The position numbers and the translations under genes were made by a program. Below are positions 4,833-46,019 of a stretch of 64,000 bases of DNA, in pieces. Under the pieces are notes generated by a model. It was not told the DNA's origin and searched no databases. It was given only the letters and a program-made list of their open reading frames with translations. Source of the stretch: an uncultured Flavobacteriales bacterium (lineage in GTDB: Bacteria > Bacteroidota > Bacteroidia > Flavobacteriales_G > Salibacteraceae); contig CALCCE010000238.1 in the NCBI GenBank assembly GCA_937899835.1, positions 1-64,000 of the forward strand, written 5' to 3'. How positions within the stretch are numbered: the first letter of the stretch is position 1; each line of letters starts with the position of its first letter.

Positions 4833-6063
4833 GGCTAAAGAATACTTGGTTATAAATACGTTGCAGGTGACGGCCTTTGGCCGTCCAGTTGAAGCGCTCT
4901 TCGAAGCGTTCGCGAGCATGAGTACCCATTTTTCTGCGCAGGTATGGGTTTTGATGCAGGTTCAGCAGCGCTTCGGCAAAAGACTTTACCGAGGTGGAAT
5001 AATTCCCGTAGGGAATTTGAAAAGCACATTGCGAGTTGGTGAGTTCTCCCGGTCCCGGGTTGTTGAAACAGACTACTGGCAAACGGTAGGAAAGGGCTTC
5101 CGCCACCACCATGCCCGCCCCTTCGTGAGAAGGAAAGAGAAAAACGGCGGCATTGGTATAGCGCTGTGTCAGCTCCGAACGTTCCATCCAGGGGACGAAC
5201 TCTACCTGGCCAGCCACACCTTCCATAAAGGCAATGCCTTGCAGGCGTTTTTTCTCCGGGCCATCTCCAATAATGGTCAGCTTGCTGCCTATTTTTTCCT
5301 GTGGCGAAAGGCGGTGAAAAAAGGCGGCAAAAGCGCGAATGGTAACGTCAAAACCTTTGAGTGGAACCAGGCGCCCCACCGACAACACTTCAAATCCGGT
5401 AGCGTGGTTAATTCCTGGGTCTTCCACCCATTCGGTGCCAACAGAAGGGAGCAAGTGCTGTTTGTCGCTTACTTGAGGAAGCTTTTGAGCCACACTTCGG
5501 TTCATGCTCAACACGCGGTTGGCCTTGCGCACGGTCAACAACAAGAAGGGGTCGAAACGCCAAAACCAGTTTTTGATCATCCAACGGGTGCGGTCCATCC
5601 ACCACGCACGAAAACCGTAAACGGGTAAAATGAATTCACGCGGTACCTTGGGATGGTGCCCGATAGGGCCCCAAATCAAAGGTTTGCCCAACAACCAAAG
5701 GAAAGAAGGGGTCCAATCGTTGTGAAAGTTGAGGTGGTGGGCCAAATCAAATTGATATTGTCTGCGCCACACCATCAAGGGCAAAAACACCTGCCAAAGC
5801 AAGTAATACAGCAGTGCACCACGGCTGCCCTTTTTCCAAAAACGCATCCAGTAAGGCAGGTCGTAATACGCCCAGGTTACCGATTGGCAGGCATGATCAG
5901 GATGTGCTTCGAGGAATTTTTCAATCGCAGGACGGTTGTTTTTGCGGGTCACTGCAATGATGTTTTGATGGAGGGCTGCTTGATGGATAAAATTCCAGCC
6001 CATGCCATCTTCCGAGCCCTTGTAAGGGTTGACGGCGTATGCGGTAAGCAATATGGTTTTCAT
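4795..6063 (-). CDS. Glycosyltransferase family 4 protein
   Basis: A 422-residue GT-B glycosyltransferase. The start is placed at the ATG at 6063 (MKTILLTAYAVNPYKGSEDG), because the N-terminal Gly-containing loop begins there, and the longer frame upstream runs antisense-like through the acyltransferase gene. The C-terminal domain shows VGRLVPLKGFD, the usual start of the donor domain, and the FPSHEGAGMVVAEAL donor-binding segment. It lies 11 bp behind the acyltransferase gene in the same operon. The role is the same class as its neighbours: assembly of the EPS repeat unit on undecaprenyl pyrophosphate. Donor unknown. Confidence 0.87.
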   Translation of the reverse strand: MKTILLTAYAVNPYKGSEDGMGWNFIHQAALHQNIIAVTRKNNRPAIEKFLEAHPDHACQSVTWAYYDLPYWMRFWKKGSRGALLYYLLWQVFLPLMVWRRQYQFDLAHHLNFHNDWTPSFLWLLGKPLIWGPIGHHPKVPREFILPVYGFRAWWMDRTRWMIKNWFWRFDPFLLLTVRKANRVLSMNRSVAQKLPQVSDKQHLLPSVGTEWVEDPGINHATGFEVLSVGRLVPLKGFDVTIRAFAAFFHRLSPQEKIGSKLTIIGDGPEKKRLQGIAFMEGVAGQVEFVPWMERSELTQRYTNAAVFLFPSHEGAGMVVAEALSYRLPVVCFNNPGPGELTNSQCAFQIPYGNYSTSVKSFAEALLNLHQNPYLRRKMGTHARERFEERFNWTAKGRHLQRIYNQVFFSHASVHRLLPLAQ

Positions 6064-6074
6064 AAGCATAAGTT

Positions 6075-6782
6075 TTAAGCGGCTTTGATTTGCCCTTTGG
6101 TAGCGGCAATCACTTTGGCCGGCACTCCGGCTGCCACTGAATGAGCCGGTATGCTGCGGGTCACCACCGCACCGGCGGCAATCACACATCCTTCGCCAAC
6201 GGTTACCCCATCGAGCAAAGTGACTTTGGAGCCGATCCAGCAATTGGCTCCGACCTTAATCCCTTTGCGGGTTACCCCTTGATGGCGAATCGCCAGGCTT
6301 GAATCCTGATAATGGTGGTTTTCGGGATGGCAGCTGAAGTACTGACCGATAATGCATTCGTCTCCGATTTCGAGTCCACCGGCTCCGCCGAGGTAGGCAA
6401 ACTCTCCAATGCCCACGTGGTTGCCAATGGTGATGTGGCTGCCCAGCTCTTGAAATGAAGTAGAGATCACCACCCGGCTGTGGGCACCAATGCCCACATT
6501 GTCGCCCATTTGCAGCAAGCCGGTTCCCAATCCACTGAGGTACACCTGGTCTTCGAGCTTTACTTGCTTTCCCCAACGGATGTTGTGGCGGCAAAAAAAG
6601 CGTACGCCTTTTCCCAACATCATGGCTTTGGGTTGGCGGCCGGTGAGTAAGAGGCGCAGGCCACGCAGGCGGGCCATTCCTTTGTCCAAAATCAAGGCCC
6701 ACAACACCTGGCCGTCCACCGCAGAGTCAAATCGAAACTGCGGGTTGCGGAACCGAATCAATATTTCAAGTAGTGTTTTCAT
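6075..6782 (-). CDS. Left-handed beta-helix (hexapeptide) acyltransferase
   Basis: A 235-residue protein with many isoleucine-patch hexapeptide repeats between about 75 and 225 (for example IGNHVGIGEFAYLG, IGDECIIGQ, IKVGANCWIGSKVTLLDGVTVGEGCVIAAGAVV) and the typical C-terminal VAAGVPAKVIA. The His-rich stretch SCHPENHHY contains a likely catalytic His for acyl transfer from acetyl- or acyl-CoA. In this operon it most likely O-acetylates a sugar of the exopolysaccharide. It sits 13 bp behind the 870-residue fusion gene. The acyl group and acceptor are inferred only from the context. Confidence 0.88.
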   Translation of the reverse strand: MKTLLEILIRFRNPQFRFDSAVDGQVLWALILDKGMARLRGLRLLLTGRQPKAMMLGKGVRFFCRHNIRWGKQVKLEDQVYLSGLGTGLLQMGDNVGIGAHSRVVISTSFQELGSHITIGNHVGIGEFAYLGGAGGLEIGDECIIGQYFSCHPENHHYQDSSLAIRHQGVTRKGIKVGANCWIGSKVTLLDGVTVGEGCVIAAGAVVTRSIPAHSVAAGVPAKVIAATKGQIKAA

Positions 6783-6795
6783 AATGTGTTGACAG

Positions 6796-9408: not shown

Positions 9409-9437
9409 AAAGCAATGTCTTCGATTGCTGAGGTATA

Positions 9438-9454
9438 GGCCAGAAGTGTACCAA
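9438..9454 (-). promoter_or_regulatory. Sigma-54-like promoter of the second EPS operon
   Basis: On the minus strand the sequence is TTGGTACACTTCTGGCC. The GG and GC doublets are separated by exactly 10 bases, as in the sigma-54 consensus TGGCAC-N5-TTGC. It ends 29 bp upstream of the start codon at 9408, and the shared 15-bp inverted repeat lies about 83 bp further upstream. The match is to the core doublets only; expression data are needed to confirm it. Confidence 0.55.
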
Positions 9455-9536
9455 GTTGAGTTTTCTACATAAGTTGCTGATAATGAGCGGTTAAATAGTT
9501 TTGTATTTTGGACTATTGTTTGAAAAATGGATTGGT

Positions 9537-9551
9537 GTCCATAATTTGGAA
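9537..9551. promoter_or_regulatory. Shared 15-bp inverted-repeat operator, EPS operon 2
   Basis: GTCCATAATTTGGAA on the plus strand (TTCCAAATTATGGAC on the minus strand) is one mismatch from a perfect TTCCA-N5-TGGAA inverted repeat. It ends 2 bp before the galE stop codon. It belongs to a set of five such sites in this window, all upstream of genes of the EPS/sensor cluster. Its distance from the predicted -24 element (about 83 bp) is typical of an enhancer site for a sigma-54 activator. Confidence 0.6.
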
Positions 9552-9553
9552 TA

Positions 9554-10573
9554 TCAGGAAGCTGCCTTCAATTGCCACCGGTAAGCATCTTCCAACGCCA
9601 AAGCAAAGCTTCTTTCGGCCTTCCAGTTCAATACTTCTTGCGCCCGGTCTACATTGGCCCAAATGGCTGGAACATCTCCGTTTCTTCGTGGGCCAAACTG
9701 ATAGGGCAGAGCCTTACCAGAAATTTCTTCGAAAGTGGTTACCGCGTTCCACACACTTACGCCACGGCCGGTCCCCAGGTTAAAGGTTTCAACCCCAGGA
9801 TCTGAAGCCCGGAGCAAATGCTGCAAACAGGCTACGTGTGCTTCAGCCAGGTCCATTACGTGAATGAAATCCCGAATGCAGGTGCCGTCGGGCGTATTGT
9901 AGTTGTTTCCAAAAATGGTAAGCTGTTGCCGCATGCCGACTGCCGTTTGTGTGATGTAGGGCACCAGGTTGGAAGGGGCACCCAAAGGAGCTTCACCAAT
10001 CAAACCACTGGGGTGTGCACCCACCGGGTTGAAATAGCGCAACAAGGCCGGACGTATGGCGGCACCACTGGTCACCAGGTCGCGCAGGTATTGCTCCCCT
10101 TGCAGTTTGGTGTTGCCGTAAGGATTGGTGGGAGGACTGAGTGGCGTGTTTTCGTTCACTGGAAGCTCTACCGGCTGACCATAGACCGTGGCCGAGGAAC
10201 TGAACACCAGGTTGGGAATATCAAACTCTTGCATCACCTCAGCAACCGTCCAGAGAGCATTCAGGTTATTTTGATAGTAACGCCCCGGTTGCAAGATGGA
10301 TTCGGCCACCGATTTGAGGGCCGCAAAATGAATGACTCCTTTCAGGTCTTTTTCCGACTCAAAAATCATCCGCATGGCCCTGCGATCGGTACAATCGGCT
10401 CGATAGAACTTTACGTCTCTGCCGGTGATGCCCTTTAAGCGCTCCAACATATCAGGGTTGGCATTGCTAAAGTTGTCGACAATGATCGGTTCTAGCCCGT
10501 TTTCAAGGAGGGCAACAATTGTATGTGAGCCAATGTATCCAGCTCCGCCGGTGACTAAAATTTTATTAGGCAT
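9554..10573 (-). CDS. galE: UDP-glucose 4-epimerase
   Basis: A 339-residue extended short-chain dehydrogenase. The NAD-binding Rossmann motif GGAGYIGSH is at 9-17, the Ser-rich catalytic SSSATVYG at 125-132, and the Tyr152-x3-Lys156 pair lies in NPYGNTK. The length matches GalE (about 338 residues). It interconverts UDP-glucose and UDP-galactose and would supply a nucleotide-sugar donor for the EPS glycosyltransferases. It is the last gene of the 17756-9554 operon and overlaps the upstream Wzy-like gene by 8 bp. Confidence 0.96.
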   Translation of the reverse strand: MPNKILVTGGAGYIGSHTIVALLENGLEPIIVDNFSNANPDMLERLKGITGRDVKFYRADCTDRRAMRMIFESEKDLKGVIHFAALKSVAESILQPGRYYQNNLNALWTVAEVMQEFDIPNLVFSSSATVYGQPVELPVNENTPLSPPTNPYGNTKLQGEQYLRDLVTSGAAIRPALLRYFNPVGAHPSGLIGEAPLGAPSNLVPYITQTAVGMRQQLTIFGNNYNTPDGTCIRDFIHVMDLAEAHVACLQHLLRASDPGVETFNLGTGRGVSVWNAVTTFEEISGKALPYQFGPRRNGDVPAIWANVDRAQEVLNWKAERSFALALEDAYRWQLKAAS

Positions 10574-11855
10574 GTTTCAGTTGTTTTGTCCACCGCTGGT
10601 GCGCGATGCGTTGTTTCAAGGCTGCTTTCCGGTCCAATTGGGTCCGAAGTTGCATGACCGGGAAAAAGAAAATCAGTTGGTAAAACAGGATGCCGAAGTT
10701 GGTTTCTCCGAAAATCCCGAATTCGGTAAAAGAGTTGATCAAAAGAGGAATCATCACTGCTGCAAAGAGCAAGCGATGGGGGCGAAGGCTTTGCCGCAAA
10801 CCGGCCACCATGGCGGTAGCAAGTTGTGAAATGGCTATTACAAAGCCGATCCAGCCCAAATTCATCAATACTTGAATAAAAGTGTTGTGCGTCATTTTAC
10901 CAGCATACGTATGAACGGACTGAAAGGCTTCAGTATAAGCGATTCTCATGAAGCCAAATCCTAACCACGGCTCTTTGGGTAAGCCCTCAGTGAGCAGAGC
11001 TTTCCAAAAAGGAAGCCGCCCGGTCATGCTCATCACCTCTTCCAGATCGCCTGCTTTGATAAAAATGAGTTGAATAATGAAAGGAATGCTCACGATCATG
11101 GCTCCATAAATCACCACTTTCATGCGGTTGGAAAGGTGATTTTGAGCCACCAGGCTCACCACAAGTAAGGCCGCAATCATAGAGGAGCGAGAACCCGTTA
11201 GTACCAACACCAAACCGGCGGCCAATACTTGAAACCAAAGGCCAGGCTTTGATTTGCGGGCTAGTTCCAAAGCGCTTGCGGCCAGGCCGACTACTGCCAT
11301 CATGCCCAGTTCATTGGGGTTCATGAAATAGCCGCCCAGGCGGGCTACTTCACCGCCGTGGGTGAGTCGGTAAAAATCATCGGGAGCAATGATCCAGCCA
11401 CCGATAAAAATCAATACAATGCCATGAATGGCTTTCCCGAGCATCCGACTCAAACGAATTGGGCTTTCGGGGTAGTGATGGCGGATCACCAAAATAGTTT
11501 TGAGGTAAATCCAAACAAATACCAAACTTTCGGAGGTCATGAACCATTGCAACAGCGAGTATCCCGGATTGGTAGACCACAACAAGGAAGCTACCCCTAA
11601 AAACAGGTATACCCCGTAAAGCAACATTGGCCATACTGCACGTACATGAATCGGAAACGAGAGGCCACGAATTTGAAGCTGACGGTACAGTAGAAATGCG
11701 CCACCAGTAGCTCCCATGCGTAGTAAAATTTTGACTCCACGGGTAATGGTAATGTTTTCCGATACGGTGAAGTAGCCACCGATCTTCAACAAGAGCAGTA
11801 CCACCATCCAGAAAGCAATGCGCTTAAGCCAGGTATGAACCGCTTGTTCAGTCAT
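10566..11855 (-). CDS. O-antigen ligase/polymerase-like (Wzy-type) membrane protein
   Basis: A 429-residue hydrophobic protein with about ten to twelve membrane spans. The long periplasmic-type loop near the C-terminal half contains KEPWLGFGFMRIAY and HTYAGKMTHNTFIQVLMNLGWIG, which fits the O-antigen ligase (Wzy_C) pattern G-x-G...H-N-x-x-x-x. Within an operon that has Wza-, Wzc- and Wzx-like genes it most likely polymerises the undecaprenyl-linked repeat units at the periplasmic side. It overlaps the upstream glycosyltransferase and the downstream galE by 8 bp each. Polymerase versus ligase cannot be settled from sequence alone; the context favours polymerase. Confidence 0.85.
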   Translation of the reverse strand: MTEQAVHTWLKRIAFWMVVLLLLKIGGYFTVSENITITRGVKILLRMGATGGAFLLYRQLQIRGLSFPIHVRAVWPMLLYGVYLFLGVASLLWSTNPGYSLLQWFMTSESLVFVWIYLKTILVIRHHYPESPIRLSRMLGKAIHGIVLIFIGGWIIAPDDFYRLTHGGEVARLGGYFMNPNELGMMAVVGLAASALELARKSKPGLWFQVLAAGLVLVLTGSRSSMIAALLVVSLVAQNHLSNRMKVVIYGAMIVSIPFIIQLIFIKAGDLEEVMSMTGRLPFWKALLTEGLPKEPWLGFGFMRIAYTEAFQSVHTYAGKMTHNTFIQVLMNLGWIGFVIAISQLATAMVAGLRQSLRPHRLLFAAVMIPLLINSFTEFGIFGETNFGILFYQLIFFFPVMQLRTQLDRKAALKQRIAHQRWTKQLKHA

Positions 11856-12963
11856 TGTAAATGTGGATTAACTCCTGAGAAATTTGTTTCCACGAAAAGC
11901 GGCTGGCTACCATCAAACGACCGTTTTGCCCTTTCTTCTTCAAGTCTCCCGTTGTTTTATCTTCCAGAATTTCGAAACAAGCTTTATGGATGCTTTCGCA
12001 GGTATTGGATTGCAATACATAGCCCGCTTGGGAACCGGCAACTGCTTCTGCAAGATTGGTGGCTTCACTGACTACTACAGGCAGGGCCAACCCTGAAGCT
12101 TCCAGTACTGCGGTAGGAAGCCCCTCGTAACGCGAGGGATGAAAAAAAGCGTCACTGTTGGCCAGAAGGTTTAGTTTTTCCTCTCCAAATCGAGCTCCCC
12201 AAAATACCACCTGGTTGGCAATGCCCAGTTCGGTCGCCATAGCCTCCAATTCCTGGCGATCGGGCCCATCACCAATCAACCACAGTTGCCCTTTGCCGGA
12301 TGCTTTGAAGAAGGAGGAAAAACCACGGAGTAACAGGTCCAGCCCTTTTACTTTGGTTTTTAAACGGCCACAGAAGCTAAAAACAGGGCCTTCTGTGGAG
12401 CCAATGGCTTCGAACTTAAATTGTAAGTCTTCGAGGTTTTGTCCGTTGGGCACCAATACTTTGGCTGCAGTGATCGGCAATTGATGGCTCGATTCCAATT
12501 CGCTTTTTCCAATCAGATGAAGCGCCTTGGCATGGTTGACCATACTGCGCTCAAAACAGTTGAAATACAAGGTTTTGCGTAAACTACTTTTGGAAAGAGC
12601 AGCGTGGTTGTAGCTGCCGTGCGGGGTAAAGATGAAACGAAGGTTCAAACGCACCAGCCATTTGTGCAAAGCGAAAAAAGCTGGAATGAAACCACCGTGA
12701 AGGTGAAAAACTGTGGTAGGGTTCACTTCGTGTAATGCTTTGATCAGTTGGCCATCTACTTTAAAAGGGTTGCGGTGCGCCTGAAAAAAGCGAATTGGGT
12801 AGCAGCGTGCTACCGTAGGCGCTTCAGGGCTGGGGGTAATGCCCCAAACAGCCACTTGTTCGCCCAGTTGGTGCTGTGAGCGCGCCAACTCATTCACCAC
12901 TTTATTTACCCCGTTGGCGCGGTTGGGGTTGGCTTTACCGAGAAGAATGTGAACGATAGGCAT
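11848..12963 (-). CDS. Glycosyltransferase family 4 protein
   Basis: A 371-residue GT-B glycosyltransferase. The start is placed at ATG 12963 (MPIVHILLGKANPNRANGVNKVV), whose Gly-Val loop is the usual acceptor-domain start; this overlaps the flippase gene by 29 bp. The donor domain shows FCGRLKTKVKGLD, LIGDGPDRQELEA and the FFHPSRYEGLPTAVLEASGLALPVV donor-site segment with its conserved Glu residues. It is expected to act in the cytoplasm on the lipid-linked EPS precursor. It is the only glycosyltransferase in the first EPS operon; three others are in the second. Confidence 0.9.
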   Translation of the reverse strand: MPIVHILLGKANPNRANGVNKVVNELARSQHQLGEQVAVWGITPSPEAPTVARCYPIRFFQAHRNPFKVDGQLIKALHEVNPTTVFHLHGGFIPAFFALHKWLVRLNLRFIFTPHGSYNHAALSKSSLRKTLYFNCFERSMVNHAKALHLIGKSELESSHQLPITAAKVLVPNGQNLEDLQFKFEAIGSTEGPVFSFCGRLKTKVKGLDLLLRGFSSFFKASGKGQLWLIGDGPDRQELEAMATELGIANQVVFWGARFGEEKLNLLANSDAFFHPSRYEGLPTAVLEASGLALPVVVSEATNLAEAVAGSQAGYVLQSNTCESIHKACFEILEDKTTGDLKKKGQNGRLMVASRFSWKQISQELIHIYND

Positions 12964-14197
12964 GGGAAGTGAGGTGTTGGCCCAATTGGTGACGAAGTGG
13001 CCAGCAATAGGCGGTGAGTAATAAAATTTGACTACCGGCCAGCCCCAAAAGCACTCCCGTAGTTCCAAATGCTGTAACGATTGGAGTGGCGAGCATGAAG
13101 CCGAGCAGGGCATTCATTACATATCCAATGAAGAGAATTTTGGTCTGTTGCAAAGCGCGCAGGGTGATTCTTAAGGGGGTACCCAGTGCCACCAACACAT
13201 AAATGGCGCAGTAGCCTCTAAGCAAATTCGCGTATCCTGTGTGCTCGGTTCCAAAAACCAGCGTTAAAATCTGGGGAGCGGCCAGAAAAAGCAACAACAA
13301 GAAAGCCCCACATCCCAACCAAAGCATCCGGCTGGCCTTGAGCATAAAATGCATCAAACCGTGGCGGCCGTCACTTTCTAATACCTTGGCCGCAGGGGCC
13401 GGAATTTGATTCTCGAACGCCAGAAACAACACGTGGAGCAGTCCCACTAATTGCTGTGCCATGCGCAGGGCACCAAGGGCGGCTGGCCCTAAGACTGTAC
13501 CGGCTGCAATGAGGAAAAAATTTCCGGAAAACCATTGGAGCAGTGCCGTACCCGCCAACCAACCGGTATACTGTCGTTGGGCCCACATCTCTTCCAATAC
13601 CACTTTGGGGCTTATCCAATGCAGCGGACCCAGGAGCGTTGGCAAAAGGGGAATACTGTAAGCTAACACCAAAAAGTAGCAGACTTGATAGAGTTGAAAA
13701 TCGTTTTGTGCGGTGAAGTAACCCAACCCACCAAGCACAATACCGGTAGCCGTTGCATCCAGTAAAAAGGCGCGTTGGGGCCGTTGTTGTGCAAAAGCAC
13801 GTTTGCGGTAATAATCGTGGAGCAGGTAGGCAATCGCTGTAGCTCCACAAAGAGCCGGAGGAAGGTTTATCCACCACCCAAGAACCGCGCAAAGGATACC
13901 GCCAAGAAGCGCCAGTAAAACGGCTTGACCGTCCAGTATTTGTAAGCCCTTTTTCGACTCTGAAACTGGTTGAACTGGCCAAAGGTGTTGCAGAGGAGCC
14001 ACCACCAAGGCTTGCAAAAAGCTGGAAGCGACCTGCACACCCATCCAAAGCAGCACGTAGCGGCCGTAGCCATCGAGTCCCAGGCTGCGCACCAGGGCAA
14101 TGCCCAGTAAAAAATTAGTGCCGCTCACCAAGGCCTGATCTCCCAACGAGATCAGTCGTGCGCCCTGCTGGTTCCATATGTTCAGTAGGCGGTTCAT
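12935..14197 (-). CDS. Polysaccharide flippase (Wzx/MATE-like)
   Basis: A 420-residue protein with about twelve hydrophobic segments, the size and pattern of Wzx/RfbX-type lipid-linked oligosaccharide flippases (MVF/MATE clan). The start is set at ATG 14197 (MNRLLNIWNQQGARLISLGDQ), which forms an ATGA overlap with the stop of the Wzc-like gene. The N-terminal stretch, about one amphipathic segment followed by SGTNFLLGIALVRSLGLDGYG, is characteristic of the family. It would move the undecaprenyl-linked EPS repeat unit across the inner membrane, upstream of the Wzy-like polymerase. Confidence 0.85.
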   Translation of the reverse strand: MNRLLNIWNQQGARLISLGDQALVSGTNFLLGIALVRSLGLDGYGRYVLLWMGVQVASSFLQALVVAPLQHLWPVQPVSESKKGLQILDGQAVLLALLGGILCAVLGWWINLPPALCGATAIAYLLHDYYRKRAFAQQRPQRAFLLDATATGIVLGGLGYFTAQNDFQLYQVCYFLVLAYSIPLLPTLLGPLHWISPKVVLEEMWAQRQYTGWLAGTALLQWFSGNFFLIAAGTVLGPAALGALRMAQQLVGLLHVLFLAFENQIPAPAAKVLESDGRHGLMHFMLKASRMLWLGCGAFLLLLFLAAPQILTLVFGTEHTGYANLLRGYCAIYVLVALGTPLRITLRALQQTKILFIGYVMNALLGFMLATPIVTAFGTTGVLLGLAGSQILLLTAYCWPLRHQLGQHLTSHAYRSHSSR

Positions 14198-16494
14198 CTC
14201 AAGTAAGTATTGAGGTAATGGCCCAATTGTCCACGCCAGGTAGCGAAAGGACGGTGAACGCGATAGCTGCTGCTGACGAACCGACCGTTGTAACTGGTGG
14301 CGCGGTGTACGCCGTTGAGCACCAGATGAACATTTTCTAATGCATACTCTTCGCAAAGCAGATCGGGCTGCATGGCCACTGAAGAAGGAGTTTTGCCTGC
14401 GCGCAACACATACAGAGTAGTGTCGGCCATCCGCATCAAACCAATGGTATCGGGCACCGAAACGGTAGCGGGAGTATCCAGCAAAATGAGATCGAATTCG
14501 GAGCGCCATTGTTGCAACCAGCTACCCAAACGGTCTTCGGTCAGCAAGGTGAGGGGCGAACCCTCGGCCAATCCAGCCGGAAGGCGGTGCACGCCATTTT
14601 TTATCGAAATGGGCAGCTCAGCTTGTGCCGTTTCCAGCAATACTTGCGCAAGGTTGGGGTAGAGCGCTTTTTCGGTGGATTGGCGCAGGTTACAATCGAC
14701 CAGCAATACCTTCTTGCCTTCGCGGGTATAGGCCTCGGCCAACCCTTGTGCAATGCTGGTTTTTCCTTCTCCGTTTACCGAAGAGGTGACGGCCACCACC
14801 GCTGATTGCTCTACTCTTCCGCGAAAGCGCAGGCTTGCGGCCAATTGCGCAAACTCTTCTTCGGCCTCATTGGCTTGTTTCGAAAGATCGCGAACGATTC
14901 CAAGTACCGAGAGCGCACTCAGGCGTTCCAACGATTCCCTGCTTTTAGGAGATTGGCGCAGCGCTTGACGCAAGGCAATGAATCCGATACTTACCAGCAA
15001 GGAGAGAAAGACCGATACTCCATAAATAAGCGCCCCTACCGGAGTAACTGGTTTTTCACTGGCCAAGGCCGGCTCTATAATTCGGTGGAAAGACAAATTA
15101 GCCGCAGTGGCAATGGAGGCTTCCGAGCGCTTCTCGCTCAAAAATCGGTAGAGGTTTTGCTGCAACTGAAATTCGCGTTCCAGCACAATCAGTTCCTTTT
15201 CTTTGGTAGGTAAGTCGTCGAACTCAGTAGAGGCAATGGCAATGGTTTTCTCTATCTCAGAGCGCTGGAAGCGGATATCGCGCAAAGAGTTGGCGATGCC
15301 TTCGCGCAGGTAATTGAGAATGTCGGTGATTTTATCGTCCACCACGGTGATGAACTCGTGATCGTTGGTGTAGCGCAGGGAAAGGTCTTTCTTTTCGTCC
15401 TCCAGGCGCTTCAGTTTTTTCATCAATTCGGTGAAAAGCAAGTCGCCAAAGGCGTCAAATTGTGGCGCCAACTGACCAATTTCACGGTCTTCCTGGTCCA
15501 GGTATTGGTTCAAGCTGTCCAAAGCAGCTTCGCGCATTTCCAGGTTCACCAATTGCAATTTGAGTTGAGCCAATTTGCGCAAGCCAGTTTCCGTTTCCTG
15601 GCGGGTGTTGATGATTTTGTTTTGCAACCGGTAGTGCTCCAGAGCGTATTCGGCGTTTTCCAACTTTTTTGCCGTTTCAGCCAGTTGCTTATCGATAAAA
15701 CCTGTAGTACGGTTGGCCGCATCTGAGCGTACCTGTACATAGTCATTTACATACGTTTCTGCTACAGCATTGACGAAATCTGCGGCTTTTTGAGGCACTG
15801 CCTCCCGGATAGAAAGCTGCACGACAGCAATGTCTTTGTCGACAGGCACCACATCCAGTTGGTCTGAGAAGTGGCGCAACAAGCTGGCTTTTGAGTGCAC
15901 TGTGAAATAATAATCGTCCAGTAAATGGTAGTTTTTGCGAGTAGCCAGAAATGCTTCATTGCGTTGGAGTTGAAAACGGAGTCCGGGCGCTACTAACCAC
16001 TCGTCAAAGCGCCCTTCCAAGTCCGGCATAGATTGGTTCTCCGCGAGGCGCACCTCGAACTTTTCGTTGGAGATTACTCTGATTTGTAAGGTTTGGCTTT
16101 TATCCAGGAAACTAACGCTGCTATCGATCTTGACCAGGAAAGGCGAATCACCGTACAATTCTTGGTCGTGCAATTGTCCTTTGCGGAAATAAGAGATACC
16201 AAAAGGCACAAGCTCCAATGCCTGATCCAATACCGCAGCTGACCGCAATACTTCAACCTCCGTTTGAATGTGGTTGCTCTGCGTGAATACATCAAAATCG
16301 CGGTACAGGTTGGAGGCTCCGAAGCCAAGGTCGTGATCGTCGAGTTTTAGTTTGGCAGTGCTTTCAAACAAAGGGGTGGTGTAGCGCAAGTAGCGGGTGG
16401 AGAAAAACAAGGCCAAAGCCACAGCAGTGATGATGACGGGCAAGCCCTTGATGTAGGGAAGCATTTGTTTTTTGATGCTTTGTGGATCGAGCAT
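14194..16494 (-). CDS. Wzc-like polysaccharide co-polymerase with BY-kinase domain
   Basis: A 766-residue protein. There is a membrane segment at about 17-35, a Wzz-type periplasmic region with a long coiled coil (about 255-460), and a second membrane segment at about 485-509. A cytoplasmic bacterial tyrosine-kinase domain follows, with Walker A SSVNGEGKTS (571-580), Walker A' VLLVDCNLRQ (596-605) and Walker B ILLDTPA (670-676). Four C-terminal tyrosines (735, 744, 760, 764) form a likely autophosphorylation cluster. The usual A' motif has Asp-x-Asp; here the second Asp is Asn602. Wzc controls polymer length and coordinates export with Wza by cycles of autophosphorylation. It follows the Wza-like gene by 6 bp. 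No phosphatase is in the operon; an LMW-PTP gene lies at 44009-44482. Confidence 0.93.
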   Translation of the reverse strand: MLDPQSIKKQMLPYIKGLPVIITAVALALFFSTRYLRYTTPLFESTAKLKLDDHDLGFGASNLYRDFDVFTQSNHIQTEVEVLRSAAVLDQALELVPFGISYFRKGQLHDQELYGDSPFLVKIDSSVSFLDKSQTLQIRVISNEKFEVRLAENQSMPDLEGRFDEWLVAPGLRFQLQRNEAFLATRKNYHLLDDYYFTVHSKASLLRHFSDQLDVVPVDKDIAVVQLSIREAVPQKAADFVNAVAETYVNDYVQVRSDAANRTTGFIDKQLAETAKKLENAEYALEHYRLQNKIINTRQETETGLRKLAQLKLQLVNLEMREAALDSLNQYLDQEDREIGQLAPQFDAFGDLLFTELMKKLKRLEDEKKDLSLRYTNDHEFITVVDDKITDILNYLREGIANSLRDIRFQRSEIEKTIAIASTEFDDLPTKEKELIVLEREFQLQQNLYRFLSEKRSEASIATAANLSFHRIIEPALASEKPVTPVGALIYGVSVFLSLLVSIGFIALRQALRQSPKSRESLERLSALSVLGIVRDLSKQANEAEEEFAQLAASLRFRGRVEQSAVVAVTSSVNGEGKTSIAQGLAEAYTREGKKVLLVDCNLRQSTEKALYPNLAQVLLETAQAELPISIKNGVHRLPAGLAEGSPLTLLTEDRLGSWLQQWRSEFDLILLDTPATVSVPDTIGLMRMADTTLYVLRAGKTPSSVAMQPDLLCEEYALENVHLVLNGVHRATSYNGRFVSSSYRVHRPFATWRGQLGHYLNTYLR

Positions 16495-16500
16495 GATGGA

Positions 16501-17262
16501 TCAGTTGATCAGTGAAAGAATGATGGCAACGGCCGTTATGGCGCTGGTGAAAGGAATGAGGGTAGGTGCCTTTTTGTCAAACATTTTTCCGCGCCTTGGC
16601 GGGATGTAAATCACATCTCCGTTTTTCATCCAGAGGGGAAGTTGACGCAATTGGTCAGAAGCCCTTAGGTCGAGCTCCAGCTCAACGGTTTGGTCTCCGC
16701 GCAGGCGCACCAGGCGCACCGAAGACAAATCGGCATAGTCGTTAAAACCGCCAGCCTTGCCCAATACTTCCAGCAAGTGGTGGTGCTCCTTTTCCAGTAA
16801 AAAAGTACCCGGGTCGCGCACTTCACCCAACACGGTTACCTCGCGGTTGAGCACTTTGACACTGATGATTGGATCTACGATGAAACGACCGTAAATGGTT
16901 TTCAGCGTGTCTTCAGCCTCGCGACAGGTCATACCAGCTACCGCAATTCGGCCAATCTTGGGCAGGGTAATCTGCCCGTTGGGGTCTACCATTACCCACT
17001 TGCCGTAAACTTCGTTGGAGTTGTAGATGCCGAACACGGAGCCAATACTCAAATCATCGTGCCCCCAAATGCTGAAGCTCACCTTGTCGTCAGTGGCCAA
17101 ACGGTAGGCCATGGTCGTATCGCTCCATGCTTGGAGGAGGCTGTCGTTTATCGGGTCGTGCTTTTCCGACTGGTAAAGGCGTTGCGTGCCGCAACTGGCC
17201 AGTAGGCAGAGCAGGATAAAACCCAGTGTCAGAGGAAGATAACGGTGGTTGGAAAGCAGCAT
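16501..17262 (-). CDS. Wza-like polysaccharide export outer-membrane lipoprotein
   Basis: A 253-residue protein with a lipoprotein signal peptide (lipobox LASC, Cys24). A Poly_export domain (about 55-135; KVSFSIWGHDDLS, VDPNGQITLPKIGRIAVAGMT) is followed by one SLBB domain (about 140-215; VTVLGEVRDPGTF), and a hydrophobic C-terminal segment (about 234-252) could be the amphipathic helix of the outer-membrane ring. It forms the export channel for the polysaccharide with the Wzc-like protein encoded 6 bp downstream. It is shorter than E. coli Wza (379 residues), having one SLBB unit, which is common in this phylum. Confidence 0.92.
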   Translation of the reverse strand: MLLSNHRYLPLTLGFILLCLLASCGTQRLYQSEKHDPINDSLLQAWSDTTMAYRLATDDKVSFSIWGHDDLSIGSVFGIYNSNEVYGKWVMVDPNGQITLPKIGRIAVAGMTCREAEDTLKTIYGRFIVDPIISVKVLNREVTVLGEVRDPGTFLLEKEHHHLLEVLGKAGGFNDYADLSSVRLVRLRGDQTVELELDLRASDQLRQLPLWMKNGDVIYIPPRRGKMFDKKAPTLIPFTSAITAVAIILSLIN

Positions 17263-30871: not shown

Positions 30872-30907
30872 TGGAGTAGGTTGTGGAGTACGTTGATTTT
30901 AAGCCTG

Positions 30908-30915
30908 CAAATATA
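30908..30915 (-). promoter_or_regulatory. Bacteroidota -7 element of the TPR/ribH unit
   Basis: The minus strand reads TATATTTG, a match to TAnnTTTG, 36 bp before the start codon at 30871. No clear -33 TTTG was found. Confidence 0.4.
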
Positions 30916-30965
30916 ACGGTTTTTTCCTTCAAGATGCCGCTGAAGCAAAGAGCGGAAAAATCGGC

Positions 30966-30973
30966 TACTTTTG
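30966..30973 (+). promoter_or_regulatory. Bacteroidota -7 element of recF
   Basis: TACTTTTG matches TAnnTTTG and lies only 8 bp before the recF ATG at 30982. A start site about 7 nt downstream would give an almost leaderless mRNA. Confidence 0.5.
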
Positions 30974-30981
30974 CAAGACAC

Positions 30982-32121
30982 ATGACGGCAAAAAAACTGC
31001 ACCTGCAACAGCTCACCTTAGTTAACTTTAAAAACTATGTGGAGGCCGAGCTTTCTTTTTCTCCGCAGGTCAATTGCTTTGTAGGCAACAACGGTGAAGG
31101 CAAAACCAACCTGTTGGATGCCATTTACTATCTCTCGTTTTGCAAAAGCTATTTCAACCCGATCGATAGCCAAAACATTCGGCACAACGAAGCTTTTCTG
31201 CTGATTCAAGGCAATTTTGAGAAAGGCGAGCAGCACGAAAAAATTCATTGCGGCATCAAAAGAGGGCAGAAAAAGCAGTTTCGGAGAAACAAAAAAGAGT
31301 ATACCCGGTTGGCCGATCACATCGGTTTACTGCCTTTGGTGATGGTTTCACCGGCCGACATCAACCTGGTGTATGAAGGCAGTGAAGTTCGACGGAAATT
31401 TATCGACGGGGTGGTTTCTCAGTTCAACAAAGCCTACCTCGACGACCTGTTACAATACATCCGGGTACTGAGCCATCGCAATGCATTGCTGAAACAATTT
31501 GCGCAACAGCGCATGTTCGATGCCACCAGCCTCGAATTGTGGGACATGCAGTTGGATGAATTTGGCAGCCGCATCTACCAGCACCGCAAAGCCTTTCTCA
31601 ACGATTTTATCCCCCTTTTCAGGGAACACTACACCAAACTGTCGGAAGGACGCGAAGTGCCCGATTTGGAGTACCAAAGTAAACTTGCCGGTGCTTCTTT
31701 GTTAGAATTGTTGGAACAAGCGCGCGAAAAAGACCGTGTGGTGCAATACACCACGGTTGGCATCCACAAAGACGACCTCGTTTTTCGACTGGGGGATTAC
31801 CCCATCAAAAAATTCGGTTCTCAGGGGCAGCAAAAGTCTTATTTGATTGCGCTTAAACTGGCCCAATACGATTATATCCGGCAGCAAAAAGAAACCACCC
31901 CGTTATTGTTGCTCGACGATATTTTTGATAAGCTGGATGCCCATCGGGTAAAAGCACTCATGAACCGGGTGAGCTCCGGAAGCTTTGGCCAGATTTTTAT
32001 TACCGACACCGACCGGGAACGCCTCGATCGGCTTTTTGCTGATATTGATATTGATTGCCGCATTTTCAATATTGTTGAAGGCCAGGCGCAACACCAAACT
32101 GCTGAGAACCATGGAGCGTAA
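30982..32121 (+). CDS. recF: DNA replication and repair protein RecF
   Basis: A 379-residue SMC-like ATPase. Walker A is GNNGEGKTN (35-43), the signature is KSYLIALKLAQ, and Walker B is LLLLDDIFDKLD near the C-terminus. The start is placed at ATG 30982 (MTAKKLHLQQLTLVNFKNY), where the family begins; the frame continues upstream without homology. RecF works with RecO and RecR to load RecA at gaps. The downstream DUF721 gene overlaps by 11 bp, a common arrangement in Bacteroidota. Confidence 0.96.
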   Translation: MTAKKLHLQQLTLVNFKNYVEAELSFSPQVNCFVGNNGEGKTNLLDAIYYLSFCKSYFNPIDSQNIRHNEAFLLIQGNFEKGEQHEKIHCGIKRGQKKQFRRNKKEYTRLADHIGLLPLVMVSPADINLVYEGSEVRRKFIDGVVSQFNKAYLDDLLQYIRVLSHRNALLKQFAQQRMFDATSLELWDMQLDEFGSRIYQHRKAFLNDFIPLFREHYTKLSEGREVPDLEYQSKLAGASLLELLEQAREKDRVVQYTTVGIHKDDLVFRLGDYPIKKFGSQGQQKSYLIALKLAQYDYIRQQKETTPLLLLDDIFDKLDAHRVKALMNRVSSGSFGQIFITDTDRERLDRLFADIDIDCRIFNIVEGQAQHQTAENHGA

Positions 32122-32529: not shown

Positions 32530-33102
32530 ATGGAAGCCGCTCAACTGCTACAACAATTACGCTTAGGAGACGAAAAAGCGTTTGAAACGATTTTTCGACA
32601 GCATTATCCCATGCTTTGCCGTTTTGCAGGTCGCTTTTTGAACGATGCAGAAAGTGCGGAAGAGGCCGTACAAGAGGTGATGGTGAAGGTGTGGGAAAAA
32701 CGCGAACAACTCGAAATCGCTACCAGCCTAAAGTCGTATCTGTTTGGCGCAGTGCACAAGCATTGCCTCAATTGGATCAAACACGATCAGGTAAAAGCCC
32801 GCTACCGGCAAGAAACCCTGGCTACCGCTCCCTTGGCTGAAGCACCAGATGGATTCGCCTCCGAATTGGAGCAACAAATTTCTCGGGCCATTCAAAAACT
32901 TCCGGAGGAACGCAGAAAAGTGTTTTTGCTGAGTCGGGAAGAAGGTCTGAAATACCGGGAAATCGCCGATAAACTGGGCATTAGTATCAAAACTGTAGAA
33001 AATCAAATGGGTAAAGCTTTGCGCTTCCTTCGGGAAGAACTGCAAGATTACCTGGTGTGGGTAGGCGTTGGTCTTTACCTGCTTTTAAAAAATTTAGGAT
33101 AG
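32530..33102 (+). CDS. ECF sigma factor (FecI/RpoE-like)
   Basis: A 190-residue sigma-70-family factor with region 2 (about 10-80; FRQHYPMLCRFAGRFL, AEEAVQEVMVKVWEKRE) and region 4 (about 115-170; LPEERRKVFLLSREEGLKYREIADKLGISIKTVENQMGKALRFLR). It belongs to the Bacteroidota-expanded group that is usually followed by a FecR anti-sigma and a TonB receptor. Here FecR follows after 38 bp, and then an STN-domain protein that is not a TonB receptor. The hydrophobic tail (VWVGVGLYLLLKNLG) is slightly unusual. Confidence 0.93.
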   Translation: MEAAQLLQQLRLGDEKAFETIFRQHYPMLCRFAGRFLNDAESAEEAVQEVMVKVWEKREQLEIATSLKSYLFGAVHKHCLNWIKHDQVKARYRQETLATAPLAEAPDGFASELEQQISRAIQKLPEERRKVFLLSREEGLKYREIADKLGISIKTVENQMGKALRFLREELQDYLVWVGVGLYLLLKNLG

Positions 33103-33140
33103 GAATAGGGGAAAGCCCCAACTGAATTGTCATCATAGAA

Positions 33141-34115
33141 GTGAACGCCGAGCAACAACCCATCGATTACGCCTTGTTGGCAAGCTACCTGGCTGGTGAA
33201 GCTACTGCCGAACAGCAGCAGGAAGTAGAGGCCTGGCGCGATGCTGATCCCGCTAATGCTGAGGAACTGGAAAAGCTCGGTAGGCTCTGGTGGGAAGCAG
33301 GTACTGCTGCTGTTGAAGCCACCGTAGATGTGGATGCAGCATGGCAAAAGGTGCAGGCAAGAACCATAGGTGAGCCCATGGCCAAAGTGATTCCTCTTTG
33401 GCGAAAGCCAGCGGTATGGAGCGTTGCAGCCAGTCTGTTGCTTCTATTGATGGCTTGGTGGGCGTGGCCAGAAACCGCCAACGAGGTGTTGGTGGCTCAA
33501 AACCAAGCGGTGAATACCACCTTGGATGATGGCTCTGCCGTTTCGCTAAACGTGGGATCGAAGTTGGAAATCACTGAAATGAACGAGGGTTTGCGGCAGG
33601 TGAAACTCGAAGGAGAAGCCTATTTTGAGGTAGCTCCCGACCAGGCGCGGCCTTTTGTGATCGATGCGGGTCCAATGGAGGTAAAAGTGCTCGGCACCTC
33701 TTTCGAGGTAGAGGCCTTTCCAGCAAGCGACAGCTTGTTTGTTGCTGTCGTCTCCGGGCGTGTTCAAGTGGATGCTTATGGCCAACAAGTGGTGCTGAGT
33801 GCCGGACAGCGGGCACAATTGAGCCGCACTACCGAAAAACTGCTGCAAAGCAATACCACCGATACCAATACCCTCTTTTGGAAAACCGGCACCCTGGTCT
33901 TTTCCCGCACCGAACTGGCTCAGGTGGTGAAGGTGCTCAACAAATGCTACAAAGTAGACATTCAGCTGGCCAACCCAACGCTGAAAACCTGCTCGGTCAC
34001 CAGCACCTTTAGCCACAAAACCATTGATGAAGTACTCGAAGTGTTGACTGCTCTGTTCGATTTAGAAGTAGCACAACAACAAAATCAGTATATCCTTACC
34101 GGTGATGGGTGTTAA
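33141..34115 (+). CDS. FecR-family anti-sigma factor
   Basis: A 324-residue protein starting with GTG at 33141. The N-terminal cytoplasmic part (about 1-90) contains YLAGEATAEQQQEVEAWRDADPANAEEL, typical of FecR. One membrane span (about 92-110; VWSVAASLLLLLMAWWAW) follows, then the periplasmic FecR domain (about 115-215; TTLDDGSAVSLNVGSKLEI, VKLEGEAYFEVAPDQARPFVIDAG) and a C-terminal DUF4974 domain (about 250-320). It would hold the upstream sigma factor inactive until a periplasmic signal arrives, presumably through the STN domain of the next protein, whose gene overlaps by 11 bp. Confidence 0.93.
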   Translation: MNAEQQPIDYALLASYLAGEATAEQQQEVEAWRDADPANAEELEKLGRLWWEAGTAAVEATVDVDAAWQKVQARTIGEPMAKVIPLWRKPAVWSVAASLLLLLMAWWAWPETANEVLVAQNQAVNTTLDDGSAVSLNVGSKLEITEMNEGLRQVKLEGEAYFEVAPDQARPFVIDAGPMEVKVLGTSFEVEAFPASDSLFVAVVSGRVQVDAYGQQVVLSAGQRAQLSRTTEKLLQSNTTDTNTLFWKTGTLVFSRTELAQVVKVLNKCYKVDIQLANPTLKTCSVTSTFSHKTIDEVLEVLTALFDLEVAQQQNQYILTGDGC

Positions 34116-36078
34116 CCGTAGCTACATCCTTTCTTTTAGAGCCGTTTGTCTCAGCCTCCTCTTATTTTTTGGCATAGCTGCTAAAGCGCAAAACCGCTTT
34201 GCCGAACGCCCCATTTCACTGCAATTAAAGCAAGTAACACTGGAAGAAGCCCTTTTTGAAGTAGGGCAGGCCGGCGGCTTTGAATTGGCCTACAACCCCA
34301 GTCGTTTTCCCGTAGATAGTTTGCTCAACCTAACGGTAGAACGCATAGCGGCCGGCAAAGTGGTGCGGCAGCTGCTGGGCAACAACATCAGCATGGTGCA
34401 GAGCGGCCAGCACCTGGTCATTCGTTTGAAAAAACCATCAGGATCCGGGCGTTTGCCCAAAAATCGCTACGTCATCAAAGGAGTAATTGTCAACCAGCAA
34501 ACGGGCAAGGTGGTGAGCAACGCCACCGTGTACGATGTAGATCGGCTCTATTCTGCACTCACCGATGCTCAGGGCTATTATGAGTTAGAGGTAAATTCCC
34601 GAGCTCCGGTATTGGGTTTAACGGTGACTAAAAATGCCTTTTTAGATACGCTAATCCTCATAGAGCCACAGCCCAATTTAAAATTGGACGTTCAATTACG
34701 GCCCAAAGAACCACTGCCTGACAAGATGCCGATGAAGGCCGTAGCCCCAGATGCTTTCCCCGCAACCCGGGTAGATGAACTGGCCTTAGTACGTCTTTGG
34801 ACCACAGACGAGGTACGCCTACAAGCGCAAAACCGCAGTTATTTAGAACCTCGTTTGGGACAAATATCAGTCCTCCCGGGGGTAGGATCAAACCGGTTGA
34901 TGAGTGGAGCGGTAGAAAATACGGTTTCGTTCAACCTGTTGTCGGGCTACTCTGGTGGCCTCAACGGCATCGAAGTAGGCGGTTTGGTCAACATCTTGCG
35001 GGAGGACATGATTGGTGTGCAGGTAGGCGGATGGGCCAATGTGGTAGGAGGAAAGATATCGGGCCTACAGGTGGGGGGCTTGTACAACCGGGGGCGCAAA
35101 GATGTGCACGGCATTCAGGTTGGCGGCTTATTCAACACCACCGGAGGTTCTGTAAAAGGAATGCAAATCGGCGGTTTGTTCAACTTAACGGAAGGGGCGG
35201 TTCGAGGGTTTCAGGTGGGAGGATTGTTCAATCAAACCCAGGGAGCAGTGCAGGGATTTCAGATTGGCGGCTTGTTCAACTACAGTGGGAGCAATGTGAA
35301 AGTCATGCAAATCGGTGGCTTGTTCAATATGGGTGAAAATGTGGGAGGCATCCAATTGGCCGGTTTGTTCAATCAGGTGGAAGGCGCGGTAGGTGGGTTG
35401 CAGGTTGCCGGCCTCTACAACGAAGCCGATAGTGTCGGCATGTTGCAACTTTCGGGGCTGGTGAATCAGGCGCGTACCATTCGTGGCCTGCAATTGGCTG
35501 GTTTGGTCAATGTAGCCAAAAAGGTAGAAGGTTCTCAACTATCGATCATTAACATTTCAGATACGGTTACCGGAGTAGCCTTTGGCTTTTTGAGCATCGC
35601 GCGGCACGGTTATCACGCCCTTGAGTTTTCTACCGATGATATTTTGTTCGCCAACCTCCACCTAAAGCTCGGGGGAAACCACCGCATTTACAACCAGTTT
35701 AGTGTGGGCATACGGCCCTTTGAAACCAACAAGCCCATTACGGGAATTGGCTATGGCTTGGGTACACTTTTCCCTTTAAAGGATGCTGAATGGTGGGGAA
35801 GAGTAGAGCTTTCTACCCATCATCTGTCCAGAAACAGCCTGTTCGATACCGATTTTCAACTCCTCAACCGCATTCGACCCGCATTGGTGTGGCGGCCCAG
35901 GCCGCATTGGGATGTTTCGTTGGGACCAGCCATCAACGTCATTGTTTATGACCCTGTAGAATCACAAGACCGTGAATGGTTGAATGATTTGGGGGCACGA
36001 TGGATGGGGCGCGATTCCCAATTCAACGTTATTCGCTTGTGGGGAAGCGCTCAAGCCGGAATAGCCTGGAATTTTTAA
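34105..36078 (+). CDS. STN-domain outer-membrane protein with 13 short G-L-N repeats
   Basis: About 657 residues. A signal peptide (SLLLFFGIAAKAQ) is followed by an STN domain (about 32-108), as in TonB receptors that signal to FecR, and a carboxypeptidase-regulatory-like beta-sandwich (about 123-200). Thirteen tandem 15-16-residue repeats (about 289-484) follow, with core G-x-Q-[VIL]-[GA]-G-L-[FYV]-N, and then a C-terminal stretch (about 505-657) ending in Phe that looks like outer-membrane strands. There is no plug domain and no long 22-strand barrel, so it is not a normal TonB-dependent transporter. The ATG at 34105 is used; a GTG one codon earlier is possible. The repeats resemble GLQ-type surface repeats of spirochaete lipoproteins; function unknown. 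Confidence 0.82.
   Translation: MGVNRSYILSFRAVCLSLLLFFGIAAKAQNRFAERPISLQLKQVTLEEALFEVGQAGGFELAYNPSRFPVDSLLNLTVERIAAGKVVRQLLGNNISMVQSGQHLVIRLKKPSGSGRLPKNRYVIKGVIVNQQTGKVVSNATVYDVDRLYSALTDAQGYYELEVNSRAPVLGLTVTKNAFLDTLILIEPQPNLKLDVQLRPKEPLPDKMPMKAVAPDAFPATRVDELALVRLWTTDEVRLQAQNRSYLEPRLGQISVLPGVGSNRLMSGAVENTVSFNLLSGYSGGLNGIEVGGLVNILREDMIGVQVGGWANVVGGKISGLQVGGLYNRGRKDVHGIQVGGLFNTTGGSVKGMQIGGLFNLTEGAVRGFQVGGLFNQTQGAVQGFQIGGLFNYSGSNVKVMQIGGLFNMGENVGGIQLAGLFNQVEGAVGGLQVAGLYNEADSVGMLQLSGLVNQARTIRGLQLAGLVNVAKKVEGSQLSIINISDTVTGVAFGFLSIARHGYHALEFSTDDILFANLHLKLGGNHRIYNQFSVGIRPFETNKPITGIGYGLGTLFPLKDAEWWGRVELSTHHLSRNSLFDTDFQLLNRIRPALVWRPRPHWDVSLGPAINVIVYDPVESQDREWLNDLGARWMGRDSQFNVIRLWGSAQAGIAWNF
34969..35556 (+). 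repeat. Thirteen tandem units of about 48 bp encoding G-x-Q-V-G-G-L-F-N repeats
   Basis: The eight-residue core (IEVGGLVN, VQVGGWAN, LQVGGLYN, IQVGGLFN and so on) recurs at a strict 16-residue step for the first eight units, then at 15-16-residue steps for the last five, the last unit (SQLSIINI) being degenerate. The DNA units have diverged, so this is an old repeat kept by selection on the protein. A regular period of this size suggests a beta-solenoid or a stacked strand-turn fold. Confidence 0.85.
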
Positions 36079-44588: not shown

Positions 44589-46019
44589 TTACTGAATCGC
44601 AATTTTCTTTTCGAGGTCCTCGATGTATCCGCGGAAACGTTTGTCGGTATCGATCAGGTTGTTCACGGTTTTGCAAGCGTGCAACACTGTAGCGTGATCC
44701 TTACCGCCACAGTGAGCCCCAATGCTTGCCAGAGAAGACTTGGTCAGTTGCTTGGCGAAGAACATCGCAATTTGGCGCGCTTGTACTACCTCACGTTTCC
44801 GGGTTTTCGACTTCAATAGCTCAATCGGAAGGTCAAAATAGTCACACACCACTTTTTGAATGTAGTCGATGGAGACCTCGCGCGCGGTATTTTTCACAAA
44901 CTTATCGATCATCTGTTTGGCCAACTCCAAGGTGATGGCCTTCTTGTTCAACGATGATTGTGCAATGAGCGATATCAGCGCACCTTCCAACTCCCGAATG
45001 TTGGTGGTGATGCTGTAGGCAAGGTATTCCACTACTTCCTTAGGCAGGTCGATGCCCTCGGTATACATTTTCTTTTCGAGGATGGCAATGCGGGTTTCCA
45101 AAGAAGGCACCTGCAAGTCGGCAGAGAGACCCCATTTGAAACGAGACAACAAGCGCTGTTCCATGCCCTGCATTTCAACCGGTGGCTTGTCGGAAGTAAG
45201 TACCAGTTGCTTGCCGGTTTGGTGCAAATGGTTGAAGATGTGGAAAAACACATCTTGTGTCTTCTCCTTGCCCGCGAAGAATTGCACATCGTCAATAATC
45301 AATACATCGATCATTTGATAGAAGTGCACAAAATCGTTTTGATTGTTGTTGCGGACCGCCTCAATGAACTGGTGGGTAAACTTCTCTGACGAAACGTAGA
45401 GTACCGTTTTCCCGGGATGGTTGTTTTTGATCTCAATCCCAATGGCGTGCGCAAGGTGGGTTTTGCCCAAACCGACACCTCCATAAATGAGCAATGGGTT
45501 GAAAGCCGTTCCTCCTGGCTTACTGGCTACCGCAAATCCGGCCGAACGGGCCAAACGGTTGCAATCGCCTTCCACAAAGTTTTCGAAGGAGTAGTTGGGA
45601 TTCAGTTGTGAATCTACAATCACCTTTTTCAGCCCGGGAATGATAAATGGATTCTTAATGGTCTTCGAACCAATGTCCAGGGGCATGGATACCGACCGGT
45701 TTTTCACTGCATTCCGGTTGGTCGTAGGAATCTTTACCGTGTAAGGTTTGGTGCTGCTGAAGTTGTTCTCCATAATGATGGAGTATTCCAACTTACCCTC
45801 CGAGCCCAATTCCTTTTTAATGGTCTTCTTCAATAAGGTGATGTAGTGTTCTTCAAGCCACTCGTAGAAAAATTGACTGGGTACTTGGATGGTCAGCACG
45901 TTGTCTTTCAACTTGATAGGAATGATGGGTTCAAACCAAGTTTTGTAACTCTGCAAACTGACGTTATCCTTGATTACCTCCAGGCAGTTTTTCCAAACTT
46001 TTTCGTGTGGTTTTGTCAT
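44589..46019 (-). CDS. dnaA: Chromosomal replication initiator DnaA
   Basis: A 476-residue protein. It has the N-terminal domain I (1-90), a short linker, an AAA+ domain (about 140-360) with Walker A GGVGLGKTH (180-188) and Walker B LIIDDVQFF (240-248), and the C-terminal domain IV with the DNA-binding signature GGKDHATVLHACKTV. All motifs are intact. dnaN and recF do not follow it; recF lies at 31 kb and the LMW-PTP gene is next. The upstream 633-bp region is non-coding. Confidence 0.97.
   Translation of the reverse strand: MTKPHEKVWKNCLEVIKDNVSLQSYKTWFEPIIPIKLKDNVLTIQVPSQFFYEWLEEHYITLLKKTIKKELGSEGKLEYSIIMENNFSSTKPYTVKIPTTNRNAVKNRSVSMPLDIGSKTIKNPFIIPGLKKVIVDSQLNPNYSFENFVEGDCNRLARSAGFAVASKPGGTAFNPLLIYGGVGLGKTHLAHAIGIEIKNNHPGKTVLYVSSEKFTHQFIEAVRNNNQNDFVHFYQMIDVLIIDDVQFFAGKEKTQDVFFHIFNHLHQTGKQLVLTSDKPPVEMQGMEQRLLSRFKWGLSADLQVPSLETRIAILEKKMYTEGIDLPKEVVEYLAYSITTNIRELEGALISLIAQSSLNKKAITLELAKQMIDKFVKNTAREVSIDYIQKVVCDYFDLPIELLKSKTRKREVVQARQIAMFFAKQLTKSSLASIGAHCGGKDHATVLHACKTVNNLIDTDKRFRGYIEDLEKKIAIQ

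Follow-up and report, generated by a model that had tools for sequence, protein, structure and literature searches.

An STN-tagged solenoid-barrel protein as the probable transducer of a FecI/FecR-type signalling system in Bacteroidota

Cell-surface signalling is usually described for TonB-dependent receptors. Here we describe a locus that probably encodes a FecI/FecR-type cell-surface signalling system of another kind, one whose transducer, in place of a TonB-dependent receptor, would be a protein that carries an STN and is related to a solenoid-barrel protein from the system's own predicted regulon; we put the probability of this reading at roughly three in four. The window, a stretch of 64,000 nucleotides from an uncultured Flavobacteriales bacterium, carries on its forward strand, in this order, genes for an ECF sigma factor, a FecR protein and a 657-residue STN-repeat protein, the whole set spanning 32530-36078 (Table 1). 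The gene order and its conservation, the domain composition, the predicted folds and the promoter-like motif with its genomic positions all come directly from computation. If the reading is right, signalling would be uncoupled from transport here, with the usual sigma/FecR machinery serving a small solenoid-barrel protein.

Table 1. Features of the sigma-FecR-STN locus in the window
Feature	Position	Strand	Description	Basis
ECF sigma factor gene	32530..33102	+	190 aa, TIGR02985 type	NCBIfam TIGR02985, Pfam Sigma70_r2 and r4_2
Promoter-like motif TAGGGGAAA-N12-TTGTCATC	33106..33134	+	between sigma stop and fecR start	
fecR anti-sigma gene	33141..34115	+	324 aa, GTG start	PF04773, PF16344, PF16220
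STN-NTE-solenoid-barrel protein gene	34105..36078	+	657 aa	
STN-like signalling domain	34195..34434	+	residues 31-110	Pfam STN in relatives, AF2 secondary structure, Foldseek
CarboxypepD_reg / SusC NTE domain	34462..34710	+	residues 120-202	PF13715, 9hfj
Predicted beta-solenoid domain	34846..35601	+	residues 248-499, ~14 turns	AF2, structure comparison
Predicted 8-stranded outer-membrane beta-barrel	35602..36075	+	residues 500-657, C-terminal Phe	AF2, structure comparison

Results

A sigma factor, its anti-sigma and an STN protein

The first two genes are an ECF sigma factor gene and an adjoining gene for a FecR-type membrane anti-sigma. The sigma factor scores 178.7 bits against NCBIfam TIGR02985 (cut-off 126.4), and FecR passes the cut-offs of PF04773 (E 2e-15), PF16344 FecR_C (E 1.4e-12) and PF16220, with a hydrophobic span at about residues 91-109 and FecR_C at residues 252-318. 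The third gene starts within the 3' end of fecR, with an alternative GTG one codon upstream, and its assignment as the outer-membrane partner with an STN domain is supported by the STN matches of 25 of 41 relatives, by the AlphaFold2 (AF2) topology and by the predicted barrel. The trans-envelope signalling layout that a preliminary description had read from the order sigma-FecR-STN is supported.

The genome from which the window comes (6.9 Mb, 98% complete) holds a single FecR and a single protein with an STN domain of this kind, and no alternative transducer was found in it. Its sole Pfam STN match, on contig C102, was considered for the role and rejected, being secretin-like and adjoining pilus or secretion genes.

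Elsewhere in the window, positions 1353-17262 look like a polysaccharide export and synthesis cluster, judged by translations only, with Wza- and Wzc-like proteins, glycosyltransferases, and flippase- and polymerase-like proteins. A RecF-like gene (30883-32121) and a DnaA-like gene (44589-46019) lie 12 kb apart.

An STN and NTE domain without a plug

The AF2 model of the 657-residue protein, built on a 41-sequence alignment, has a mean pLDDT of 88.9 (near 97 in the repeats) and gives the order signal peptide, STN fold (36-108), NTE, short linker, repeat strands (248-499) and barrel (503-656). Residues 36-108 follow the pattern beta-alpha-beta-beta-alpha-beta-beta, and Foldseek matches for this region include the PilQ N0 domain (4ar0). 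PF07660 STN matches 25 of the 41 relatives (best E 5e-10); in the window protein itself the Pfam STN match is sub-threshold, and its PDB profile matches to the STN domains of PilQ and PupA are weak (E 0.2-0.96). The beta-sandwich that had been noticed behind the STN proves to be a CarboxypepD_reg/NTE domain: PF13715 matches 40 of the 41 relatives, and residues 120-202 superpose on the NTE of SusC (9hfj) with Z 11.9 and an r.m.s.d. of 1.9 over 80 aligned residues.

A TonB-dependent transducer would carry a plug (PF07715) and a TonB-dependent barrel. Neither Plug nor TonB barrel profiles of Pfam match any of the 41 relatives at E<0.01, in keeping with the plug-less third protein that had been proposed, and the barrel predicted here has eight strands.

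A predicted beta-solenoid of 16-residue turns

Within the predicted solenoid lie the thirteen G-x-Q-V-G-G-L-F-N repeats of the preliminary description, which held up on closer analysis. They begin at 34969 (residue 289) and extend to about residue 480 at a step of 15-16, as twelve strict repeats and a thirteenth that reads GSQLSIIN. The pattern Q..G..N occurs 11 times in the protein and all 10 steps are 15 or 16, far beyond what 2,000 shuffles produced (at most four occurrences and one such step). The repeats score 28.8 bits against NCBIfam NF047436 (LA_2272 surface repeat; curated cut-off 25), which places them in that family, and the same model matches 35 of the 41 relatives at E<0.01.

Structure prediction of the repeat region, which had been suggested as a check, yields a beta-solenoid with a pLDDT of 92.3 when the domain is predicted alone. 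This isolated domain resembles parallel beta-solenoids, best of all the antifreeze domain 3p4g, an MpAFP-like (RTX) solenoid (Z 20.9, 230 aligned residues, r.m.s.d. 3.4), although the turns here are of 16 residues. No entry in the Foldseek list for the solenoid has an E-value below 0.2 (0.7 for 3p4g), so that we claim only a shape and no homology. Transmembrane strands were considered as another explanation of the repeats and rejected, as the model has a pattern of 7- and 4-residue strands per 16 residues and the isolated domain matches parallel solenoids.

STN-repeat or repeat-only genes are broken by a stop or frameshift in several relatives, often within the solenoid (L051:6606-8259, L060:6450-8504, L062:4976-6211, L063:4606-6037 and L049:3358-4349). 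These breaks could be assembly errors or on-off variation.

A small barrel that would place the repeats in the periplasm

The protein had been taken to have no large barrel, which agrees with the model. It is not supported that there is no barrel at all: a predicted C-terminal barrel of eight AF2 strands, each of 8-15 residues, had been overlooked. Residues 500-657 are predicted to form an OmpA/OprF-like barrel (OprF 4rlc, Z 14.0, r.m.s.d. 3.0, 125 aligned residues; NspA, Z 13.5; OmpA, Z 12.9), a shared predicted fold for which homology is not claimed. A tree of the barrels of STN-bearing and STN-less proteins did not resolve a single origin.

OmpA-like barrels have both termini on the periplasmic side. 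As the solenoid and STN are N-terminal to a barrel of this topology, both are most likely periplasmic in the model, with the repeats not on the surface; the longest predicted loop (615-642) would lie outside the cell. Such a placement fits the role of an STN and argues against the exposed repeat sensor that the preliminary description had favoured. A sensor whose repeats bind an external ligand or surface would accord with the NCBIfam name, surface repeat, but an 8-stranded barrel has no lumen for exporting repeats that precede it, and we regard this alternative as improbable. The full-length model has a pTM of 0.67 and does not fix how solenoid and barrel sit with respect to each other.

The set is conserved across Bacteroidota

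A search with a five-member alignment collected 80 loci, all from Bacteroidota, among them Bacteroidales, Pedobacter, Mucilaginibacter, Niastella, Algoriphagus, Cyclobacterium, Flammeovirga, Flavobacterium and others; a single-protein query of the whole collection had returned zero relatives. FecR lies upstream of 75 of the 78 full-length STN-repeat proteins, a total that counts the one in the window, and sigma as well as FecR accompanies 72, rates that may be biased upwards because the relatives were chosen by full-length similarity. The six exceptions comprise three contig ends, one convergent pair and two loci without the pair. An association of this kind with FecR genes is what the preliminary description had proposed to look for, and neither a lack of it nor a plug, either of which would have spoken against that description, was found. 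Across 42 genomes of the window's order, a full-length STN-repeat protein is present in 14, and FecR occurs in all 14 versus 4 of the 28 others (Fisher p 6e-8).

Could the third gene be an unrelated outer-membrane protein that happens to sit beside a sigma/FecR pair? Repeat-only relatives do occur away from FecR. Against this stand the phylum-wide adjacency, the co-occurrence among genomes and a common promoter-like motif, described below, which together leave chance a very improbable explanation.

Three gene families recur around the system. The first, the repeat-only paralogue, has the solenoid and the barrel and lacks the STN; the second is a TonB-dependent receptor (about 780 residues; NTE and plug, no STN), near the system in 36 loci; and the third is a DUF2807 lipoprotein, beside it in 27. 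The window genome has its paralogue and TonB receptor on a contig other than the window's (C146:11485-15073). Solenoid turn numbers of transducer and paralogue show a weak correlation (rho 0.49, n 44, without correction for phylogeny). On the same contig, upstream of the repeat-only paralogue, a second TonB-receptor-type gene (G000:C146:6056-10316; L166, L017) adjoins a LytS/LytTR-type two-component pair.

A shared promoter-like motif outlines a predicted regulon

Two-box words were enumerated separately upstream of sigma genes and of repeat-only genes, and the top words were the same in both sets (GGGTA-N13-TTGTC and GGTAA-N12-TTGTC). The refined promoter-like motif, TAGGGGTAA-N12-TTGTCATA, is found before sigma or FecR, before the STN-less solenoid-barrel paralogue, and before TonB receptors and DUF2807 lipoproteins. 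Of all sites in the window, the one at 33106, ahead of fecR, scores highest with a matrix derived from related loci, which detects none upstream of sigma. The feedback site likewise lies ahead of fecR in the nearer relatives, beginning 36-43 nt from the gene as it does in the window, and ahead of sigma in others. In the window its downstream, -10-like box ends only about 6 nt from the fecR GTG, which would imply a nearly leaderless transcript and counts against the favoured reading.

Sites of at least 18 bits, in counts made mostly in the matrix's own training loci, precede 30 of 52 repeat-only paralogues (58%), 16 of 34 TonB receptors (47%), 7 of 25 DUF2807 genes (28%) and, before sigma or fecR, 48 of 81 systems (59%), versus 10 of 608 other genes (1.6%); shuffled loci contain none. 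The other 33 of the 81 systems have no site directly before sigma or FecR, which likewise counts against it.

Scanned with at most one mismatch, the whole window genome (6.9 Mb) has exactly three sites. One is the site at 33106, which was part of the matrix. The second (C146:11432) is an exact match about 25 nt ahead of the start codon of the repeat-only paralogue, with the TonB receptor downstream, and the third (C146:29027) lies about 24 nt ahead of a Crp/Fnr-like regulator gene (L165:3081-3677 = G000:C146:29080-29676). Both C146 sites lay outside the training set, as did a distant site in another genome (G008) before a DUF2807-like gene, so named by sequence and not by profile. Across the 42 genomes of the order the motif pattern has 19 sites, versus 1 for a reversed control pattern.

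In another genome (G012, contig C165), which has repeat-only genes and no FecR, an exact motif precedes a short gene (L169:1048-1377) encoding a signal peptide and the apparent last strands of a TonB receptor; it looks like a receptor without its middle.

Discussion

A working model and its rivals

In the model that we favour, the 8-stranded barrel would hold the transducer in the outer membrane and the solenoid, at 16 residues per turn, would cross part of the periplasm. If Fec and Fox are a guide, the STN would bind the C-terminal domain of FecR. This contact would be altered from the barrel, the solenoid or a partner, whether by a ligand or by a changed state there. FecR would then be processed, freeing the sigma factor to transcribe from promoters of the motif type. 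Predicted outputs are fecR with the transducer gene, as feedback, the STN-less paralogue with its TonB receptor, and the Crp-like regulator; in relatives, DUF2807 lipoproteins may be among them. The binding of STN to FecR, the proteolysis of FecR and the recognition of the motif by the sigma factor are carried over from the known Fec and Fox systems. As long as no signal is present, the signalling domain of Fox is bound to the anti-sigma and shields it from proteolysis (PMC11637429).

One rival account has the regulon's TonB receptor (NTE-plug-barrel, no STN) both sense and import, while the STN-solenoid-barrel protein merely relays to FecR in trans. The recurrence of this NTE-bearing receptor family near the system and the motif ahead of nearly half of the receptors scanned are consistent with it, as is the window genome's own receptor, which follows the paralogue under an exact motif. 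Yet in many loci the surrounding 7 kb contain no receptor of this type, it is not obvious why a relay should need its own barrel, and sigma-dependent output of a TonB receptor is no proof of a role in input; we consider this account possible but rather unlikely. Because the predicted regulon holds a plug-bearing TonB receptor, an imported substrate, read indirectly, may nevertheless be the input, where the preliminary description had expected a signal of another kind.

Equally unlikely is a role in which the solenoid and the barrel watch over the outer membrane, or over how much of the paralogue is present in the periplasm, while the task of the regulon is to repair or remodel the envelope. 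In its favour, the transducer, with its STN tag, is related to a protein of the regulon predicted for it, and the weak correlation of turn numbers points the same way. Furthermore, DUF2807 has been classed with the Toastrack domain of phage-shock and Lia envelope-stress systems (PMC11237479); however, DUF2807 proteins have also been described as adhesins (PMC10949514), and the predicted regulon of the window genome contains no known stress gene.

Taking the favoured model beyond this locus, we tentatively suggest, as less probable than not, that these loci form a phylum-wide sigma/FecR class. Its transducer would carry an STN tag and be related to a solenoid-barrel protein under the control of the sigma factor, and by it the cell would read the state of the solenoid proteins in its own outer membrane, with no ligand driven through the sensor by TonB. 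With three predicted sites in a single genome, the regulon lends itself to a direct search for the signal by means of reporters, and the Crp/Fnr-like regulator under the motif, if real, would add a second regulatory layer.

Comparison with known systems

The locus resembles FecI-FecR-FecA and FoxI-FoxR-FoxA in its clustering of a sigma factor, a FecR with FecR_C and an STN-like outer-membrane protein, and in its motif-driven feedback. It differs in that the transducer lacks a plug and a 22-stranded barrel, having a predicted beta-solenoid and a predicted 8-stranded barrel instead, and gives no hint of a part in transport. In FecA-like receptors sensor and output are one, and in a similar way the transducer here is a relative, with an STN tag, of the repeat-only output protein. 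With the SusC/RagA transducers of Bacteroidota (STN-NTE-plug-barrel) it shares the succession of STN and NTE, whereas their plug and large barrel are absent.

The repeat unit is common to LA_2272 (NF047436), a model that covers the repeat only, with no STN, FecR partner or barrel. No paper on the LA_2272 repeat was found in the open-licence literature, and the linkage to sigma and FecR would give this repeat its first functional context. Nor did we find the present architecture described there, in searches on the repeat, TonB-independent signalling and ECF groups.

The closest parallel is VreA (PA0674) of the PUMA3/Vre system of Pseudomonas aeruginosa, an STN-like protein without a TonB-receptor barrel encoded beside a sigma factor and an anti-sigma (PMC2729926). 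It is the sole exception to TonB-receptor transducers that we found in the open-licence literature, and a partial precedent: the protein described here likewise pairs an STN with a neighbouring sigma/anti-sigma and lacks a TonB-receptor barrel. VreA, however, is small and mostly soluble in the periplasm, with a TolA/TonB-like C-terminal domain (PMC2729926), whereas in the present protein the STN is followed by an NTE, a predicted solenoid and a predicted outer-membrane barrel that compares with OprF at Z 14.
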